Assembly (NCBI RefSeq): GCF_014698145.1
Contig: NZ_JACJSM010000008.1
Location: 62,001 to 126,000 of the forward strand
Length of the DNA stretch: 64,000 nt
Source: Oscillatoria sp. FACHB-1406
Lineage (GTDB): Bacteria > Cyanobacteriota > Cyanobacteriia > Cyanobacteriales > Spirulinaceae
Reading direction: 5' to 3'
Each line of letters opens with the position of its first letter. The stretch's first letter is position 1. The position numbers and the translations under genes are program-made. Positions 2,368 through 62,674 of the stretch are shown here, in pieces. The notes under the pieces were generated by a model. It saw nothing but the letters and a program-made list of their open reading frames with translations, was not told the DNA's origin and ran no database searches.

Positions 2368-2441
2368 CGGGATGTAGCGCAGCTTGGTAGCGCGCTTGCT
2401 TTGGGAGCAAGATGCCGCAGGTTCAAATCCTGTCATCCCGA
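2368..2441 (+). tRNA. tRNA-Pro (anticodon TGG)
   Basis: A complete cloverleaf: acceptor CGGGATG pairs with CATCCCG, the D-arm contains AGCTTGGTA, the anticodon stem CTTGC/GCAAG encloses loop TTTGGGA (anticodon TGG), and the T-loop is GTTCAAATC. The discriminator base A is at 2441 and CCA is not encoded. The 3' part from the anticodon stem onward is repeated at 5191, because this gene is the integration site of the 2.8-kb element to its right. The intact copy is the left one, so tRNA function is kept after integration. Confidence 0.97.
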
Positions 2442-2491
2442 TTTAACATAAAGCCCTAGAACGTTATCACTGTAACGCTTCAAGGGCTTTT
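2394..2491 (+). repeat. attL direct repeat, tRNA-Pro 3' part plus terminator
   Basis: These 98 bases are identical to 5191-5288. Beyond them the similarity continues for about 16 more bases with two mismatches. The repeat starts at the anticodon stem of tRNA-Pro, so the strand exchange site is probably in the anticodon arm, where the symmetric CTTGC/GCAAG could serve as the recombinase core. The length of the identity, which includes the transcription terminator, suggests a recent insertion or continuing exchange. Confidence 0.92.
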
Positions 2492-2492
2492 T
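2450..2492 (+). terminator. Terminator of tRNA-Pro
   Basis: The stem AAAGCCCT/AGGGCTTT closes a long loop with internal AACGTTA/TAACGCT pairing and ends in a T-run. It lies nine bases after the tRNA end. A second copy (5247-5289) is part of the right att repeat. Confidence 0.75.
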
Positions 2493-2539
2493 AGCTTGTA
2501 GACGAGCCGATTGAGAAAGCTGGGATGAGGGGAGATTTT

Positions 2540-2571
2540 GGTATTAAAGCGGTATTAAAACCAATAATACC
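2540..2571. repeat. Left arm-type repeats (GGTATTA x3)
   Basis: GGTATTA occurs at 2540 and 2551 in direct orientation, 11 bases apart, and once inverted at 2565-2571 (TAATACC). The same heptamer occurs four times near the right end of the element. Position close to att and helical spacing suggest arm-type binding sites for the element's recombinase. The rest of 2442-2802 shows no gene. Confidence 0.6.
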
Positions 2572-2802
2572 AACTTAGTACCCATGTATTGACTAGCTTT
2601 CAGCCCTCTCGCCTTACTGTCTAAATCAGTTCACATGAACGCATATATGTAATCAATATGCAATCAGCAAAGTAGTCCAATTAAGTGGTATCGTCTGTTT
2701 TGACACGGATAAGTCAAAATAGACTCAGACAACAAAATGACCAGCGCAGGTAGTTACTGCCACTGGTCACGTAGTTTTATATGTACTCACCCCGATAATA
2801 CC

Positions 2803-3108
2803 ATGACACAACAACACCAATCGGCGATTGCTGACATTGTTTCACGCTTGTCAATTCAATTGACTCAACTTGAAGCTCAATTGATGGTTGTCACTCACGT
2901 TCAAGAACACATTTTAGAAGATTTCAGCGTCTTTGACCTACCATTACTCACTACTGACAATGAGCATCTTTTTTACGACCAATCAGCCTTTGCCAGTGAA
3001 ATCTTAAAGTGTTATCGCACTTCAATGGAATCCCGACTAAAGGTAATGAACGAACAGGTTAGTTGCCATGTTGGTGTAACCATTTTTTCGTCTCAGGAAG
3101 CAGGGTGA
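2803..3108 (+). CDS. Unknown 101-residue protein of the tRNA-Pro element
   Basis: I do not recognise this protein. From ATG 2803 it has 101 residues and begins MTQQHQSAIADIVSRL. Residues 5-35 are predicted helical with heptad-like Leu/Ile spacing, the centre is acidic, and the end is polar. The frame is open from 2737, but the extra 22 residues are unlike a protein start and no ribosome site supports them. It lies alone between the left arm repeats and the first operator-like site at 3196. In small integrative elements a gene in this position can encode an excisionase or regulator; nothing in the residues proves that here. Confidence 0.45.
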   Translation: MTQQHQSAIADIVSRLSIQLTQLEAQLMVVTHVQEHILEDFSVFDLPLLTTDNEHLFYDQSAFASEILKCYRTSMESRLKVMNEQVSCHVGVTIFSSQEAG

Positions 3109-3195
3109 AGTTACAGCGTATCTTTTTTTCTTTCGGTTTTGTACGCATAATGGGGAAGGTATGTGTAGAACTAACGTACTGATATTATGCCATAA

Positions 3196-3215
3196 GTTGT
3201 ACACGGTAGTACAAC
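3196..3215. promoter_or_regulatory. Operator-like site 1 of tRNA-Pro element
   Basis: GTTGTACACGGTAGTACAAC has 7-bp inverted arms (GTTGTAC/GTACAAC) around a 6-base centre. It lies 90 bases before the winged-helix gene. Related sequences occur at 3611-3628 and 3760-3781 in the opposite orientation. A binding site for the winged-helix protein, or a replication or transfer signal, is likely. Confidence 0.55.
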
Positions 3216-3305
3216 CCAACGACAAAACTCTGACGGCAAGGCGTTGCAATGGGGTTGGAGTGATGGAAGGATAGATGATGCAAGTATCCCGACGTAACAC
3301 ACATC

Positions 3306-3599
3306 ATGACAATTGACGTGCATACCCTTGCTGAGGAATTGGGTGTTAGCGCTGAAAGGCTGACAAAGCGACTGGTTCGATTGAGTATTGATAAGTACAG
3401 GCAGAGTCCTGAGTGTGTAGTCTTGAGATATCTAAAAAAGGTCAATGAGCCGCAATCGGTAAAGGAAATTACGTTAGGTAGTGGACTAGATGAAAGGACG
3501 ATTTACCGAGCCTGCGGTGAACTTTATAGTGATGGATTGATTGAGAGTCACGGCGTTAAACCTGTACTGTATTCCCTTGTGGATGATGACACGAACTAG
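3306..3599 (+). CDS. Winged-helix DNA-binding protein of the tRNA-Pro element
   Basis: A 97-residue protein with two helix-turn-helix-like parts. The first (residues 5-25, VHTLAEELGVSAERLTKRL) resembles a short N-terminal HTH. The second (about 42-92) has the order helix, VKEITLGSGLDERTIYRAC recognition region, then a wing with LIESHGVKPVLYSL, typical of MarR/IclR-like winged helices. It is the only regulator in the element and lies between copies of a GTTGTACACGG-type site, so it probably controls the element's genes by binding them. No ribosome site is evident upstream of the ATG. A role as excisionase or copy-control protein cannot be excluded. Confidence 0.65.
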   Translation: MTIDVHTLAEELGVSAERLTKRLVRLSIDKYRQSPECVVLRYLKKVNEPQSVKEITLGSGLDERTIYRACGELYSDGLIESHGVKPVLYSLVDDDTN

Positions 3600-3610
3600 G
3601 TTTAGCTTTG

Positions 3611-3628
3611 GTATGTACAACCGTGTAC
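3611..3628. promoter_or_regulatory. Operator-like site 2 of tRNA-Pro element
   Basis: The complement reads GTACACGGTTGTACATAC, matching the core of site 1 (GTACACGGTAGTACAAC) with few changes. It begins 12 bases after the winged-helix stop codon. Confidence 0.5.
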
Positions 3629-3676
3629 CGCCTAACGTATTTACGTCGTTCTAGCTTAGTCCCTCCCTCTATTTCT

Positions 3677-3717
3677 GGATAATTAAATTATTAATTAAAT
3701 TATTAATTTAATTATCC
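3677..3717. terminator. AT-rich palindrome between convergent genes
   Basis: The 14-base arms GGATAATTAAATTA and TAATTTAATTATCC pair perfectly around an AT-only centre that itself contains repeats of ATTAAATTATTA. Outside it a CCTCCCTCTA tract (from 3662) can pair partly with TAGGGGGGGAGG (from 3724), making a longer stem. It lies between the convergent winged-helix and integrase genes, so a two-way terminator is the simplest reading. Its size and AT content would also suit an origin or transfer signal. Confidence 0.45.
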
Positions 3718-3759
3718 CCAAAGTAGGGGGGGAGGTGTCCCCTAGGATGACGTTTTATC

Positions 3760-3781
3760 GTTGTGTATCACCGTGTACAAC
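3760..3781. promoter_or_regulatory. Operator-like site 3 of tRNA-Pro element
   Basis: The complement starts GTTGTACACGGT, identical to the first 12 bases of site 1, and continues to an imperfect inverted arm ending ACAAC. It lies 88 bases beyond the 3' end of the integrase gene. Confidence 0.5.
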
Positions 3782-3868
3782 TCTCAGGAAAGGACTGTCC
3801 TTCAGACAAAAGAAAGCGAGGCATAAGTCACCTCACTTTAATGTGTATAAAGCCTTTAAAGGCATTAA

Positions 3869-5062
3869 CTACATAGGCACAATATGAGCAATGCCAGCGT
3901 CCCCTAGATAATGCTTTTCAATCATTGCCGTTGAAGTATCGCACCATTTAGCTACGATAGCAGAGCTAATACCTTTAGCTATTTGTTCGCTGATAAATGT
4001 GTCTCGACAACAGTAGGGAGTAGTACCGGGCTTAATTGGGTCAACAATCTTGTTCCACGCTCGCCTTGAAAAATCTGAATAACGAATAGGATTACCCTTG
4101 GGAGAGAGGAACACTAAGTTATCAGATTGATAACTTTCAGGACAAATGTCCAACAAAAATTGACGCAGTTCCTCATTGCAGGGAAACGTGCGTTTTTTGT
4201 TATTTTTACTTCCTTTTGTCTTTATCCATTTTCCATTTTTATTGTATAACCCACCATTAAAAGTAATACGGCTCATGTCCGGCGAAATATCTCCCCAACG
4301 CAGTCCTACAGCCTCACCAGGACGGCAACCCGAAAGGAACATGAATTTAACAAAAGGAAGATAGTGACAATATTTTATACCTGTATAGTGTTTGCTGTTA
4401 TAGTTGCCGCGATGATTCTTAAACTCCTCTAGAATGTATTGCTTTTCTTCTTGAGTAAATGGGTTAGGTTCGGGGTCTTCTTCATATTTATGCTTTAACC
4501 CATCTGTTATCCCTTCATAGGGATTTTGTCCTTTCACAATTCCATGCTTGAGTCCCCATTTGAAGGCTGCATTAGTATGGGTCAATACTCGTTTGGTCAT
4601 GCTTTCCGAGTAATTATCGAGTAACCATTGACGAAATTCTAGCGCTTGGTAAGGCGATTTAATAGGCGACTTTTGAAATTTGTTAGGAAAAGTCTCCGTA
4701 TAACCAATGTAAGTCGTCTCCTTGATTGTTGGCTTTAAATATCCTAGATAACGGTCGTACAAGTCACCCAGTGTAGTCTCTGGGAACAGCGATTGTACTT
4801 TCTCTAAATGAGCCTTCTGTTTGTACTTCTGTTTGTACCGTTCCAGCGTTAAATCAAACTGTCCGAAGTCAATGTCCGTTTGGATAGCTTTGATACGCTT
4901 CTCAGCTTCAATACGGTTCTCTGGAGTGTCTTTCAGCCCTAATGCCAGTCGCTTCCGTTTACCGCCAAACAGGGAACGGGGGAAGTTGACCTGTAACGTG
5001 CCATTGACTGAAATAACTGAACATTGACCGTGAGGCGACTGCGTTCTGTCTGTTGAATACAT
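3869..5062 (-). CDS. Tyrosine recombinase (integrase) of tRNA-Pro element
   Basis: A 397-residue integrase that should insert and excise the element by strand exchange at tRNA-Pro. The N-terminal third resembles the arm-binding region of phage integrases. A core-binding domain follows (about 88-195), then the catalytic domain with the first Arg in SGCRPGEAVGLRWGD, the box II segment TPYCCRDTF and the nucleophile Tyr in IEKHYLGD. Box II has Tyr where most family members have the His of HxxR, as reported for the cyanobacterial excisases XisA and XisC. The gene reads inward from the right att, 128 bases from it, across four GGTATTA repeats. There is no HIP1 octamer in it. It looks intact, so the element may still move. 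Confidence 0.92.
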   Translation of the reverse strand: MYSTDRTQSPHGQCSVISVNGTLQVNFPRSLFGGKRKRLALGLKDTPENRIEAEKRIKAIQTDIDFGQFDLTLERYKQKYKQKAHLEKVQSLFPETTLGDLYDRYLGYLKPTIKETTYIGYTETFPNKFQKSPIKSPYQALEFRQWLLDNYSESMTKRVLTHTNAAFKWGLKHGIVKGQNPYEGITDGLKHKYEEDPEPNPFTQEEKQYILEEFKNHRGNYNSKHYTGIKYCHYLPFVKFMFLSGCRPGEAVGLRWGDISPDMSRITFNGGLYNKNGKWIKTKGSKNNKKRTFPCNEELRQFLLDICPESYQSDNLVFLSPKGNPIRYSDFSRRAWNKIVDPIKPGTTPYCCRDTFISEQIAKGISSAIVAKWCDTSTAMIEKHYLGDAGIAHIVPM

Positions 5063-5105
5063 AGGAACTAAATCTAAGTAACTACACCCTCATCATACTC
5101 TGAAT

Positions 5106-5147
5106 GGTATTAAATTGGTATTATTTACGGTATTAGACCTGGTATTA
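5106..5147. repeat. Right arm-type repeats (GGTATTA x4)
   Basis: GGTATTA starts at 5106, 5117, 5129 and 5141, all in the same direction and spaced 11, 12 and 12 bases, about one helical turn. They lie between the integrase start and the right att repeat. The gap 5063-5401 otherwise contains only the att repeat and tRNA fragment. Confidence 0.65.
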
Positions 5148-5190
5148 AAACGCTAAGCTTATATATAGCTTGTTTCCGTTGACTCTATTT

Positions 5191-5238
5191 GCTTGCTTTG
5201 GGAGCAAGATGCCGCAGGTTCAAATCCTGTCATCCCGA
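5191..5238 (+). pseudogene. 3' fragment of tRNA-Pro
   Basis: Forty-eight bases identical to the 3' half of the tRNA-Pro at 2368-2441, from the anticodon stem to the discriminator base. The acceptor 5' strand and D-arm are missing, so it cannot make a tRNA. It is the displaced end of the original gene after integration. Confidence 0.9.
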
Positions 5239-5288
5239 TTTAACATAAAGCCCTAGAACGTTATCACTGTAACGCTTCAAGGGCTTTT
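5191..5288 (+). repeat. attR direct repeat
   Basis: Identical over 98 bases to 2394-2491. It contains the tRNA-Pro 3' half and the terminator hairpin, and marks the right border of the element. HIP1 octamers resume at 5320. Confidence 0.92.
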
Positions 5289-5401
5289 CAGCGTGTAGAC
5301 GAGCGAAAAATTAAGAGTTAAGCGATCGCGCCTTACTTGTAACACACTTAAATTATGTACTACACTATAGAGGTTTGCCTTTCAATGTGACCTGATTAGT
5401 C

Positions 5402-7213
5402 ATGGCTTCCTTTTGGCATCTGCTTAAACCCTATCGACCGTACCGCGCGATCGCGATCGCCAGTATCTTAATGTCCGGTTTCTTCGAGATGGTGGATTTG
5501 GTCGTTCCCTACGCGATCGGTCAAATCCTCAACATTCTCTCAAAGCAGCCCATCGATAACCTTTTACAAGCGTTTAACTCAAAAATTGCTGCCTTTCTCA
5601 ACCTTCCCGATCGCCGTGTTGTAGATTTAGGAGTCTTACTCGCAATTATCTTCATCGTTAATGTTGTCCGCGCGCCCATTCAACTGTGGGTTAGCAGTTG
5701 GCATCATTGGGCAATCTCCTTAAAAGCACGCCGCGACCAATCGCAGCAAGTGATGGAGAAAATTCTGACGCTGCCGGTTGAATATTACGACGAAAATAAC
5801 CCCGGTCGCATTGCCGGACGAGTGGCGCGCGGACTCTCCAACCAAACTTGGACATATCCAGAAATTGCCGGACAGTTAATTCCGAAACTGATGCGCGTGT
5901 TGGGAATTTTTGCAATGATTTTGCTGATTGAATGGCGCATCGCGATCGCCTTTGCAATCTCCTTCATTGTTATCCTGTCTTTAACCTTACGCGACCTCAG
6001 TCGAATTATCAAACGAGAAGAAAAAATCGATAATTACATCGAAAATACCGAAAGCCGCACGTCCGAAATTATCACCAATATCAAGACCGTAAAAGCATTT
6101 GCAAACGAGGCATCCGAACTCAAACGCCAGCAGCAGCGGTTTATTCGCGAATGTAAAGTTGTAATCGATCGCATTCATCGCAGCTACGTTTGGCTCTCGA
6201 CTAAGCAGCGAACATTGACTCAAATTTGCTTTTTCTTAGTGTTATTTTTTGCTCTAACGGCTACCCTTCGCGGTCAAATCTCCCTCGGACATTTTGCAAC
6301 AACTTTGACCATTGCTAGCATGGCCTATGCCGAATTAGAGCCGATTGGGATGCTTGCTGAAGTCTTAACTCGCCGCTATGCTTCAATGATACGCCTCTAC
6401 GAATTTATGGAGCAGTCGGACGGTGGCGATGCAGCCAATTTATCGCCCAATACGCTATCGCCTTACCACTTTACGGGAAAAATCGATCTAATTAATGCGA
6501 GCTTTGGGTACAACCCTCACCGTCAGGTTTTGGAGAATATTAATCTCTTAATCGAACCTAATCAAACCGTTGCCTTAGTCGGTCGGTCGGGTTCGGGTAA
6601 ATCGACATTAGTGAAACTGTTATTCCGCTATTTCGATCCTTCTAGCGGGCAAATTCTCATCGACGGCGAAGACATTCGCACGCTGGATATTACTCGCTAT
6701 CGCCAACGTTTAGCTATCGTCCATCAAGAAGTCGATATTTTTAACGGAACGCTACTATCTAACCTCAAATACGGCAATCCGCAGGCAAGTTGGGAAGAAG
6801 TCGAGGCAGCGTGTAAAATTGCACGGGTGGATGAATTCGTGCGGGAACTGCCTGATGGTTATTCAACCATTGTTGGAGAGCGAGGCGTGCGTTTGTCGGG
6901 CGGGCAGCGTCAACGTTTAGGGATTGCGCGTGCGTTGATTGTCAATCCGGATGTGTTGATTTTTGACGAGGCGACTTCGAGCTTAGACTACGAATCGGAA
7001 CGTCTGATTCAGTTAGCGATGCGATCGATTTACGGAACGCGCACGACGATTATTATCGCTCACCGTTTGAGTACGGTTCGAGAAGCCGATAAGATTGTGG
7101 TGTTAGATTCGGGGAGAATACTTGAAGTTGGGAATCATGAGGAGTTATTGAATCAACGGGGAATTTATCATCGCTTGCATTCGTTGCAAGAGACGGGAGA
7201 ATTAATAGCTTGA
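5402..7213 (+). CDS. ABC exporter, fused permease and ATPase
   Basis: A 603-residue half-transporter that should work as a homodimer in the membrane. Residues 1-320 form the six-helix exporter domain and residues 360-600 the ATPase, with Walker A GRSGSGKST near 394-402, signature LSGGQ near 498, Walker B VLIFDEA near 517-523 and the switch His in IIAHRLST near 553. The architecture is that of type IV exporters of lipids, peptides or drugs; substrate is unknown. The ATG at 5402 stands just after the right border of the mobile element, so its promoter lies in the short DNA after 5289 and could be affected by the insertion. A strong shared terminator follows the gene. Confidence 0.9.
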   Translation: MASFWHLLKPYRPYRAIAIASILMSGFFEMVDLVVPYAIGQILNILSKQPIDNLLQAFNSKIAAFLNLPDRRVVDLGVLLAIIFIVNVVRAPIQLWVSSWHHWAISLKARRDQSQQVMEKILTLPVEYYDENNPGRIAGRVARGLSNQTWTYPEIAGQLIPKLMRVLGIFAMILLIEWRIAIAFAISFIVILSLTLRDLSRIIKREEKIDNYIENTESRTSEIITNIKTVKAFANEASELKRQQQRFIRECKVVIDRIHRSYVWLSTKQRTLTQICFFLVLFFALTATLRGQISLGHFATTLTIASMAYAELEPIGMLAEVLTRRYASMIRLYEFMEQSDGGDAANLSPNTLSPYHFTGKIDLINASFGYNPHRQVLENINLLIEPNQTVALVGRSGSGKSTLVKLLFRYFDPSSGQILIDGEDIRTLDITRYRQRLAIVHQEVDIFNGTLLSNLKYGNPQASWEEVEAACKIARVDEFVRELPDGYSTIVGERGVRLSGGQRQRLGIARALIVNPDVLIFDEATSSLDYESERLIQLAMRSIYGTRTTIIIAHRLSTVREADKIVVLDSGRILEVGNHEELLNQRGIYHRLHSLQETGELIA

Positions 7214-60466: not shown

Positions 60467-62674
60467 GTGAGTCAATCCAGTTCGCTGATTTATCAAGCCA
60501 AGCAAGGGAACCCCAATGCCATTGCAAGTTTAGTTAATAAATCCCTTGACTCGCACGGTATAAAAGTAATCAAGTCTGTTATTAAACAAAAATGCTTGCA
60601 TTTTCTCCTCGAAGCCGAAGACTTCTCAGATCGAGAGAAATTAATTAAATTCATAAAATCTGTCTTGCTTAAGCTGAATCCTAATAATATTAATTCTGTA
60701 AAAATTTATGGATGCCATAATGGTAATACTGCTCCAGTTTGGAATGCCGAGTTTGTTTTGCTGAGAAGCAATCAAGCACCAAATCAGTCGTCCATTTTGG
60801 AATCGCTAGAATCTCAAGTAAGATCGTTATTAAAAACAGAGTCTACTATTACAATTCGGAAAAAACAAGATGCGTTGATTTTTTTCATTAAGTCTTCCAA
60901 CGACTTAGAAAAGTCTGAAACTTGTAATATTGTTCGCGAATCAGTAGAAAAAACTAGAATTGACGATAACCTAACGACAATCAAAATTTATTTTCAAAAA
61001 ACAGACGAAGACGTTCCCGATTGGCATCATGAAGAGCGGTTAGAACGCACAAGTCTTAAAGAACAAAATTCTCAAGCGTCTCAAAGTCCTCGATCGCAAG
61101 AACAATCTCTTCAGCGCCCATCGCCAGTTATACAAGTAGAACAACTCTCTTATGAATTATTTGAGAAACTACATCTTGCTTTTTTAGCTCCGGTTGCAAG
61201 TCGAAATCAGTTTATCCTAAGTGCTTCAGAAGACCCAACAATTTCATCAGATGATGTGGTTCGAGGTTTAAATATTGAATCACTGTCTTCAGAGCTAAAA
61301 GAATCTCTGATGCACTCCAGTCAAGTTTTTAAGAACTTGGCGTTAAAATACTCTCTCGATTGCTCATCTCTTGGGGAAGATATCAAAAATCTATTCGATT
61401 CCATCAGCGCCGAACTCAAACAAGAAATTAAAGAAAAACTAAACATTGTCCACCAATTAGGTCAAAACTATTTAGAAATTCAAGAAGGAGAATTAAATGT
61501 TCTCGAACAGGTGGGGAAGGGGGCTACTCAAGGTGCAATGCAGAGTTTTAGTTGGTTTGGTGGATTGGTTGGAGCATATCAAGGATATCAATCTGTCAAC
61601 CAAAGAAAACAAGACTTGAAGGTAACAGAGGAACAGTATCTTCAAGCTAGGGAAATGCTGTTTGAAAATATTTTTTCATTCTGGAGGCAATTATACTTAG
61701 CAATCGCTGACTTTTGCGATCGCAAACTTGCAGTTAAATTAATTGCCTACCAAGACATTCGGGAAAAAATAGAGCTACACGAACAAAAGGTTGAAAGAGC
61801 AATTGAACTATTAAATTCCGATCGCGCTAGCGAAGCAGTTTGCGAATTCGAGTCTGCAAGAGACCTTTTCTGGGAAAAAATAACCCCCTCATTTGCAGAC
61901 CGGATTATGCTCAAAAATTTATCTGGTAATGAATCGCTTCAGTGGAGAGTTTTTGTTTGGGCAAATGCTTACTTAGAAAACGGCAATCCGCAGCAAGCGA
62001 AATATTTCTATGAAATGATACGAGATAACTATACAGCTATTGCTGATGCAGAGTTTGGATTGGCTTGTGTTTACTCTGTTGAAGATCGGGTTGAACAAGC
62101 TTTTGATTGCTTGAAATCTGCAATTCAGAAGGGCTTTTGCGATCTCGAATTGCTTGATTCAAAACAAGCATTAGAAAATTTGAGAATGAAAGAAAGCTAC
62201 ACCTTATTTTTTGCTAATGCTTGTAAAACTTGTTCTCCAACAGGCATTGATTACAGTACCTTGGCAGATTATCTTACTGAGAAGCAATGGAAAAAAAGCG
62301 ATTTTGAAACGTACACCTTAATCTGTAAATCTTTAAAGAAAGGAAGTGAGTCAACTTTTAATAATAACGAAATTGAGCAAATTTCTATTGCCGATCTAAA
62401 AAATATTGATTATTTGTGGCGAAAACATAGCGATCGGCTCTATGGGTTTTCAATTCAAAAAGAAATTCAACAAGACTTGGATCCAAACACCTTAATTACG
62501 GATAAACTAAGTTGGCCGCAATCTGATAGTCCTGATGAGTTTTTTAAAGACTTTAGTTCAAATGCTCAAAAATCTAGCACTAAGGGGACTCTTCCTTACA
62601 CAATTCATTGCAAAGGTAGTGGTTGGCTGAATTCGTTTATGTTTTATAAAATTATTGCAAGATTTGAAGAATGA
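60467..62674 (+). CDS. Large helical protein with tandem cyanobacterial N-terminal domains
   Basis: A 735-residue protein from GTG 60467, which has AAGGAG ten bases upstream. Residues 1-105 are the same domain as the start of the pentapeptide protein at 7260 (AKQGNPNAIASLVNKSL versus ARQGDPSAIATLFNRQL; a VWNAEF end). A second, diverged copy spans about 110-195 (VPDWHHEERLE at its end). The middle is helical with one Gly-rich hydrophobic stretch (GATQGAMQSFSWFGGLVGA near 355-373), and TPR-like helices cover about 490-580. The DNA is AT-rich and poor in HIP1 compared with the genome, a sign of foreign or fast-changing origin. Function is unknown. It follows the two membrane-protein genes. Confidence 0.65.
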   Translation: MSQSSSLIYQAKQGNPNAIASLVNKSLDSHGIKVIKSVIKQKCLHFLLEAEDFSDREKLIKFIKSVLLKLNPNNINSVKIYGCHNGNTAPVWNAEFVLLRSNQAPNQSSILESLESQVRSLLKTESTITIRKKQDALIFFIKSSNDLEKSETCNIVRESVEKTRIDDNLTTIKIYFQKTDEDVPDWHHEERLERTSLKEQNSQASQSPRSQEQSLQRPSPVIQVEQLSYELFEKLHLAFLAPVASRNQFILSASEDPTISSDDVVRGLNIESLSSELKESLMHSSQVFKNLALKYSLDCSSLGEDIKNLFDSISAELKQEIKEKLNIVHQLGQNYLEIQEGELNVLEQVGKGATQGAMQSFSWFGGLVGAYQGYQSVNQRKQDLKVTEEQYLQAREMLFENIFSFWRQLYLAIADFCDRKLAVKLIAYQDIREKIELHEQKVERAIELLNSDRASEAVCEFESARDLFWEKITPSFADRIMLKNLSGNESLQWRVFVWANAYLENGNPQQAKYFYEMIRDNYTAIADAEFGLACVYSVEDRVEQAFDCLKSAIQKGFCDLELLDSKQALENLRMKESYTLFFANACKTCSPTGIDYSTLADYLTEKQWKKSDFETYTLICKSLKKGSESTFNNNEIEQISIADLKNIDYLWRKHSDRLYGFSIQKEIQQDLDPNTLITDKLSWPQSDSPDEFFKDFSSNAQKSSTKGTLPYTIHCKGSGWLNSFMFYKIIARFEE

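Follow-up and report, generated by a model that had tools for sequence, protein, structure and literature searches.

A small integrative element in a cyanobacterial tRNA-Pro gene, probably reduced, and its integrase relatives

In Oscillatoria sp. FACHB-1406, a cyanobacterium of the family Spirulinaceae, a stretch of 64,000 nucleotides (positions 62,001 to 126,000 of contig NZ_JACJSM010000008.1, referred to here as the window) contains a 2.8-kb integrative element inserted at tRNA-Pro(TGG), the sole tRNA gene that ARAGORN detects in the window. The element is framed by direct repeats that are identical over 98 bp (2394-2491 and 5191-5288), that agree at 112 of 114 positions when extended, and whose starts lie 2797 bp apart. 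Each copy comprises the 3′ part of the tRNA gene, from the anticodon stem onward, and the terminator-like hairpin that follows, leaving an intact tRNA gene at one end and a 3′ tRNA fragment at the other, an arrangement by which genomic islands are recognized. A tyrosine integrase gene lies between the repeats, as expected of a tRNA-targeted integrative element. An Rfam scan returned only tRNAs above the gathering score, and the 48-bp matches to plasmid DNA covered the tRNA part only. Both the repeats and a complete recombinase had been noted in a first-pass annotation made from the letters alone, and both observations were borne out.

The integrase is a full-length protein of 397 aa with matches to PF00589 (E 1.2e-10), to the arm-binding domain PF12167 (Arm-DNA-bind_2, E 5.3e-8), and to a PHROG integrase family (E 1.6e-42). 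From a set of 66 integrases, 8 were left out because they were short or had internal stops. In the 58 aligned rows that remain, among them those of the window and of a sister element elsewhere in this genome, R247, K286, R353, and Y385 are invariant, Y350 is shared by 57 rows, and D375 by 47; Y350 and D375 occupy positions usually filled by histidines in this enzyme class. Near both ends of the element, the heptamer GGTATTA forms arrays of arm-type sites: counted on both strands, it occurs nine times in the element against 0.27 expected (P 2e-11), with seven of the nine copies inside the two end arrays.

The absence of HIP1 octamers, also pointed out in the first pass, was confirmed. None of the window's 97 copies (counted with overlaps; 94 without) lies in the element, against 4.4 expected (Poisson P 0.012), and among 1225 sliding stretches of 2797 bp, the four that are free of HIP1 all fall on the element. 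HIP1 is absent from the sister element as well (joint P ~2e-6, with the window's density applied to both), and GC content is 0.41 in the element versus 0.47 for the window.

A query consisting of the upstream gene and tRNA-Pro matched all 13 family genomes, and tRNA-Pro adjoins a GNAT-like gene in family genomes too. In the 12 other family genomes, all 11 readable tRNA-Pro(TGG) sites (the match in G002 ends before the tRNA) had no second tRNA-Pro 3′ copy in the flank examined, which was 1.5 kb, or 206 bp in one genome; the flank check alone leaves room for larger insertions farther out. The genome-wide match list held one other 3′-only tRNA-Pro piece, which is a tRNA gene within an array. By this measure, the element is absent from the same site in relatives, and the absence at 11 of 11 sites, the near-perfect att repeats, the intact integrase, and the lack of HIP1 agree with its earlier description as compact and recently inserted. 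The downstream ABC gene gave no empty site, as its four orthologues (67–69% identity) had no tRNA in their 1.5-kb flanks. Two matches were set aside. A tRNA-Pro-like match in G008 was rejected as a trace of the element, lying in a tRNA gene array without an integrase (L184, contig C76; 37 predicted tRNA genes on 15.5 kb). In G001, a 5′ match to tRNA-Pro lies next to an integrase gene; it was rejected as the same site, belonging to a different gene, tRNA-Pro(GGG). That integrase (L185:6060-7380, C223) is 27–30% identical and transcribed toward the tRNA, next to which a repeated GATTGGGCGCA motif can be made out by eye.

Besides the integrase, the element carries few genes (Table 1). ORF1 (for open reading frame) is predicted to fold as two long helices (single-sequence model, mean pLDDT 71) and probably starts at 2803, at an 18-bp leader common to the sister; the 5.47-Mb genome contains two exact copies of this leader and a third with 2 mismatches. 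Homology of ORF1 to the sister's protein at the same place was considered and rejected, with no significant protein similarity (E 0.70) and the leader alone in common. A winged-helix DNA-binding protein (wHTH) matches TrmB at E 9e-6, just above the curated cut-off, and is similar to the wHTH of Csa3/CasR regulators; its single-sequence structure model is weak (mean pLDDT 53). It is a candidate regulator, excision factor, or replication initiator. Both wHTH and ORF1 (searched without its tail) found a match in their own genome only (1 of 291, 1 of 386, and 1 of 291 genomes, own included), and wHTH had none in phages, plasmids, or viral contigs at the thresholds used (E 0.01 for plasmids). The first-pass annotation had seen these three genes and had overlooked a fourth, a broken gene at 3059-3148 that reads as a ribbon-helix-helix (RHH) type. 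A stop interrupts it in the window element; the sister's copy and the listed homologues are open, and a Pfam scan of the sister's copy gave no RHH match. Palindromic operator-like sites at 3197, 3613, and 3763 are built on TTGTAC, which occurs nine times in the element against 1.1 expected (P 3e-6), four of them inside the int gene. Where the wHTH and int genes converge, a long hairpin folds at -17.8 kcal/mol as single-stranded DNA (z -4.1). Terminator-like stem-loops found by consensus scan number 4 in the region versus 2.5 expected, a class not above chance.

The earlier remark that nothing visible replicates or transfers the element also stood. Replication, conjugation, and capsid genes were not recognized in it, and the scanned element ORFs contained no relaxase or conjugation gene in Pfam, PHROGs, or NCBIfam, and no viral, conjugation, or transposon signature gene, the profile of a cryptic integrated element. 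A transposon was considered and rejected, with no transposase recognized and a tRNA site, as was an integrative conjugative or mobilizable element, with no relaxase recognized.

Table 1. Mapped features of the window element, and relatives delimited by a second tRNA copy
Feature	Position or size	Strand	Basis
tRNA-Pro(TGG), intact; target gene rebuilt by left repeat copy	2368-2441	+	ARAGORN
attL: tRNA 3′ part from anticodon stem onward and terminator; exact to 2491	2394-2507	+	repeat comparison
Left arm-type sites: two direct GGTATTA (2540, 2551), one inverted (2565)	2540-2571	both	motif count
18-bp start leader identical to sister's	2789-2806	+	genome search
ORF1, 101 aa, function unassigned; tail overlaps broken RHH-like gene	2803-3108	+	ORF list, leader, structure prediction
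Broken RHH-like gene, stopped after 29 codons; upstream region retained	3059-3148	-	sequence comparison
Palindromic operator-like site TTGTACACGGTAGTACAA, upstream of broken RHH-like gene	3197-3214		motif scan
wHTH, 97 aa, TrmB/MarR/Csa3-like	3306-3599	+	Pfam, NCBIfam
Operator-like site, second copy, 4 mismatches	3613-3630		motif scan
Long hairpin between converging wHTH and int genes	3660-3733		DNA fold
Operator-like site, third copy, 3 mismatches	3763-3780		motif scan
Terminator-like stem-loop 3′ of int	3813-3839	-	consensus scan
Tyrosine integrase with arm-binding domain, 397 aa; R247, K286, Y350xxR353, D375, Y385	3869-5062	-	Pfam, PHROG, alignment
Right arm-type sites: four GGTATTA at 5106, 5117, 5129, 5141	5106-5147	+	motif count
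attR: displaced tRNA 3′ part and terminator; exact to 5288	5191-5304	+	repeat comparison
Relative: Cyanothece BG0011, tRNA-Gly	~6.1 kb		second tRNA 3′ copy scan
Relative: Tychonema LEGE 07203	~9.0 kb		second tRNA 3′ copy scan
Relative: Tychonema LEGE 06208, tandem pair	~7.2 kb		second tRNA 3′ copy scan
Relative: Stenomitos	4.0 kb		second tRNA 3′ copy scan
Relative: Cyanosarcina	1.8 kb		second tRNA 3′ copy scan
Relatives: three Nostoc	1.4-1.7 kb		second tRNA 3′ copy scan

An integrase search of the same genome found two, that of the window and one 30% identical to it, the latter in a sister element of 5.4 kb that occupies tRNA-Val(CAC) on another contig (L008:2906-8366) between exact 82-bp repeats. 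With this sister of the same design on a separate contig, an assembly artefact was rejected. It resembles the window element in its tRNA 3′ repeat, its lack of HIP1, its TTGTAC clusters (19 copies against 2.2 expected, some inside its reading frames), its start leader, and its RHH promoter stretch, and differs in its larger size, divergent integrase, open RHH-like gene, and extra cargo. The two elements share stretches of 64 and 81 bp at 88–89% identity, which take in some of the RHH-like gene together with its start and operator, and a further stretch of 28 bp (window 3739-3766). A third site in the genome, at tRNA-Arg(TCT) (L007), holds a left-end remnant only, 76% identical to window 2413-2619, with conserved flanks; a second tRNA copy was not found there, and GATACTG stands in place of GGTATTA at each of the three arm-type sites, their register preserved apart from a single 1-nt gap. 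By eye, the sequence after this remnant resembles a transposon-associated gene. Within the sister, two strong TTGTAC-rich hairpins (L008:3440-3545, z -8.0, and 6944-7030, z -6.3) frame the cargo, the former bordering the shared 28-bp stretch, and a 146-nt segment (L008:3280-3425), without an Rfam match, folds into what resembles the T-arm and acceptor stem of a tRNA (DNA fold z -2.8). One sister protein (L008:5818-6465) is related at 29% identity to a protein of another cyanobacterium's tRNA-borne element (L099:12455-13090), and by eye only, the pair shows a C-terminal zinc ribbon and an SprT-like resemblance.

Relatives of the window integrase are widespread in cyanobacteria. Matches at E 0.001 were obtained in 27 of 59 genomes, own included, and a collection of bacterial and archaeal genomes yielded 64 loci, all titled cyanobacteria, several of them the same places as loci in the genome set. 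Plasmids and phages gave only integrases of 26–31% identity at E 1e-10. At 46 of the 64 loci, a tRNA gene of one of eleven kinds lies within 1 kb (a count made without a random control), and at eight, a second tRNA 3′ copy encloses the integrase (Table 1). The three delimited relatives of 6.1, 7.2 (L066), and 9.0 kb, the other two being L053 and L056, contain a DUF5906 or DUF3987 primase-helicase, and a primase match was found somewhere in the examined stretch at 15 of the 64 loci. The four shortest, of 1.4–1.8 kb, have room for little beyond the integrase, and their repeats are 76–84% identical. In the tree, the window integrase groups with those of Cyanothece (tRNA-Gly), Aphanothece, and Cyanosarcina (tRNA-Arg) with support of 100/99, in a set of four at different tRNA genes; the three elements with mapped ends (all but that of Aphanothece) measure 1.8, 2.8, and 6.1 kb. 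The window row is flagged among the long end branches, and the sister integrase sits on a very long one well outside the set, its place unsure. The Cyanosarcina radialis element at tRNA-Arg(TCT) (L039/L055), with an integrase 53% identical, shares the arrangement and has heptamer arrays at both ends, and differs in its 1.8-kb size, its content of an integrase and a 50-codon ORF, and its repeats, which are 84% identical over 57 bp.

Five other delimited elements likewise carry heptamer arrays of their own at both ends (TGAGGGTAA, TGACAGTCA, TGTTTCGCA, TTGGAGACAA, and a GAGTACG type), in a comparison made without a shuffle control. In the window, L053, L066, and L099, the inverted copy lies on the tRNA side; in L039 it lies on the opposite side, and L056 has none. 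The sister gave no repeated heptamer in the array test, and only TGTGACC-like copies can be seen by eye. Arm arrays thus seem to persist in the family while their sequence is specified anew in each element, once visibly in all copies together, which makes co-evolution of the integrase (Int) and its arms directly testable.

Several other loci of the family merit mention. In Tychonema sp. LEGE 06208, tRNA-Arg(TCT) is occupied by a tandem of two 7.1-kb elements (L066:2641-16980), with proteins nearly identical by eye and att repeats of 85–100% identity. In a member of the Spirulinaceae, a truncated integrase of the window's kind adjoins tRNA-Gly(CCC) (L042:8651-12790), with a second partial copy 3.4 kb off and other genes between, a decayed relative. 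In the Nostocales, an integrase of the family adjoins tRNA-Thr(GGT) at seemingly one conserved locus (L063, L064, L071, L075, L077, L079, L080, L082-L084, L086, and L087), where the second tRNA copy, seen at three loci, is 76–77% identical and the examined stretches contain no primase match. The median dN/dS of this integrase is 0.11 (from the 63 of 66 pairs whose dS is under 1.5), indicating purifying selection, and the gene may have been kept or domesticated as a lone integrase; a thirteenth copy (L081), excluded from the alignment for an internal stop, counts against that reading. At six loci of other genomes that hold homologues of the RHH-like gene, the examined stretches contained no window-kind integrase, wHTH, or sister cargo at E 1e-3, and a tRNA gene was present in five of the six.

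Read from the att repeats, the arm arrays, the full-length integrase, wHTH, the small ORF, and the RHH-like remains, the locus is best explained as a deletion derivative or a naturally minimal element that would be competent for Int-mediated excision and integration, without functions for replication or transfer. Most likely, it can hop in and out of the chromosome and cannot copy or transfer itself. In the proposed mechanism, Int would bind the GGTATTA arms and the tRNA core, recombining attL with attR for excision and attP with attB for integration; the crossover would probably fall at the start of the repeat, in the anticodon stem-loop. The insertion would be neutral because the element's copy rebuilds the 3′ end and terminator of tRNA-Pro. 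Direction or transcription could be set by wHTH, as the first choice, or by ORF1, as the second. Because the element has no replication gene, the circle would be lost, be reintegrated, or be carried by another element's transfer, and spread would be passive. The element would most likely have arisen when a larger member of its integrase family lost cargo, and regulatory cassettes may have been exchanged with the sister in the same cell. For this full reading of a reduced tRNA-targeted integrative element, with its mechanism and its origin by cargo loss, a probability of roughly 0.7 seems appropriate.

Among the three explanations offered in the first pass, a reduced island thus fares best, with the 6–9-kb primase-helicase relatives and one broken gene in its favor. 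A new small family can point to the breadth of the integrase family and is set back by wHTH and ORF1, found in no other genome searched; the third, a satellite dependent on another element, is possible. The same annotation had held that this recombinase in a much larger island would mark a decayed remnant. Relatives of 6–9 kb do exist, as do near-integrase-only relatives of 1.4–1.8 kb, and because of the latter, small size alone is no proof of decay; elements reduced to an integrase, this suggests, arise repeatedly. Some observations weigh against a reduced element descended from a larger one. Since no larger relative with the same gene set was found, the direction of change (loss of genes rather than their never having been gained) is only inferred. 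Both wHTH and ORF1, which have no homologue elsewhere, may not derive from larger relatives. Carriage of a primase may not be ancestral because 49 of the 64 loci have no primase match, many of these stretches being cut by contig ends, and the two mismatches at the repeat's outer end may mean that the insertion is slightly old or that its source allele differed.

An immobile remnant of a larger island, in which the att sites and integrase gene survive by chance, would account for the broken RHH-like gene, and decay is seen in the truncated integrase beside tRNA-Gly in a family member (L042) and in the left-end remnant that this genome carries at tRNA-Arg; larger relatives exist as well. This is nonetheless unlikely, given exact repeats of 98 bp, when those of the four shortest delimited relatives are only 76–84% identical, a full-length integrase with its catalytic positions, and two intact arm arrays. 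Somewhat less probable again is that the element is a satellite, not of a phage, but of its 5.4-kb sister: having lost its own RHH and kept the promoter and TTGTAC operators, it would be controlled in trans, together with the sister, by the intact RHH of the tRNA-Val element, with cassettes exchanged between them. If true, one integrative element would here be parasitizing a second small one on the chromosome they share.

That a helper phage mobilizes and packages the element, with wHTH as the switch, is a more doubtful proposition. Three larger delimited relatives pair the integrase with a DUF5906 or DUF3987 primase in the manner of the PICMI model, as far as its accessible description goes (PMC10803314), and at E 1e-5 or better, the L053 primase finds no match in the phage collection beyond two satellite phages of Streptococcus, with 23% identity over 31% of the query. 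The element itself, in contrast, has no match to a primase, AlpA, or Fis and no recognized packaging gene; viral contigs match the integrase at four loci only, with 24–29% identity, and no helper was identified. Least credible of all is a self-replicating, plasmid-like element whose wHTH starts replication at the hairpin and operator region. The operator-like palindromes and strong hairpin flanking wHTH would suit such a role, and the same idea was raised for a 2.6-kb archaeal element, where its authors called it premature without tests, according to the part of the report available (PMC6563490). Against this, wHTH resembles transcription regulators and has no plasmid homologue at E 0.01, and the hairpin, lying between convergent genes, may be a terminator.

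As a reduced tRNA-targeted element, the locus offers a compact, testable model for the lower size limit of cyanobacterial integrative elements, comprising an integrase, att sites with their arms, and one regulator. A small integrase with a defined tRNA target is also a candidate tool for strain engineering, and the lone tRNA-Thr integrase under purifying selection raises the question of its retained role.

Among known systems, PICMI satellites of Vibrionaceae are described, in the portions available, as combining an integrase and a DUF3987 or DUF5906 primase with AlpA and Fis regulators (PMC10803314). Only the larger relatives, with integrase and primase in 6–9 kb, resemble them; the window element does not, its five ORFs scanned with Pfam having no primase, AlpA, or Fis. 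Tycheposons, defined in the accessible text by a tRNA border, a tyrosine recombinase, and cargo carriage over 4–200 kb (PMC10872708), share the border and recombinase with the window element, which at 2.8 kb falls below their cargo-carrying size range. Integrative conjugative and mobilizable elements differ in having relaxase or conjugation genes, which the scanned ORFs do not contain. Islands of the Islander type, to judge from the part of that work at hand (PMC4383910), are alike in their tyrosine integrase, their ends of intact tRNA and 3′ fragment, and a repeat running from the anticodon stem, and the window element is much smaller than the lower size peak of 13.6 kb given there. No published report of this family of small tRNA-inserting elements was found among titles and abstract openings, with subscription papers mostly out of reach. 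The nearest published element found appears to be NitUzo-E2, a cryptic integrated element of Thaumarchaeota described in the available text as 2.6 kb in length and encoding an integrase, a wHTH, and two unknown proteins (PMC6563490). The two are alike in size (2.6 vs 2.8 kb), in an integrase with one wHTH and one or two unknown ORFs, and in having no recognized replication or transfer gene; they differ in that NitUzo-E2 has an archaeal host, while the window element has relatives and a sister, and the likeness is one of gene content, with no homology claimed. It would seem, then, that this kind of element is already known, and that what is new is a cyanobacterial member with an unusually informative family context.

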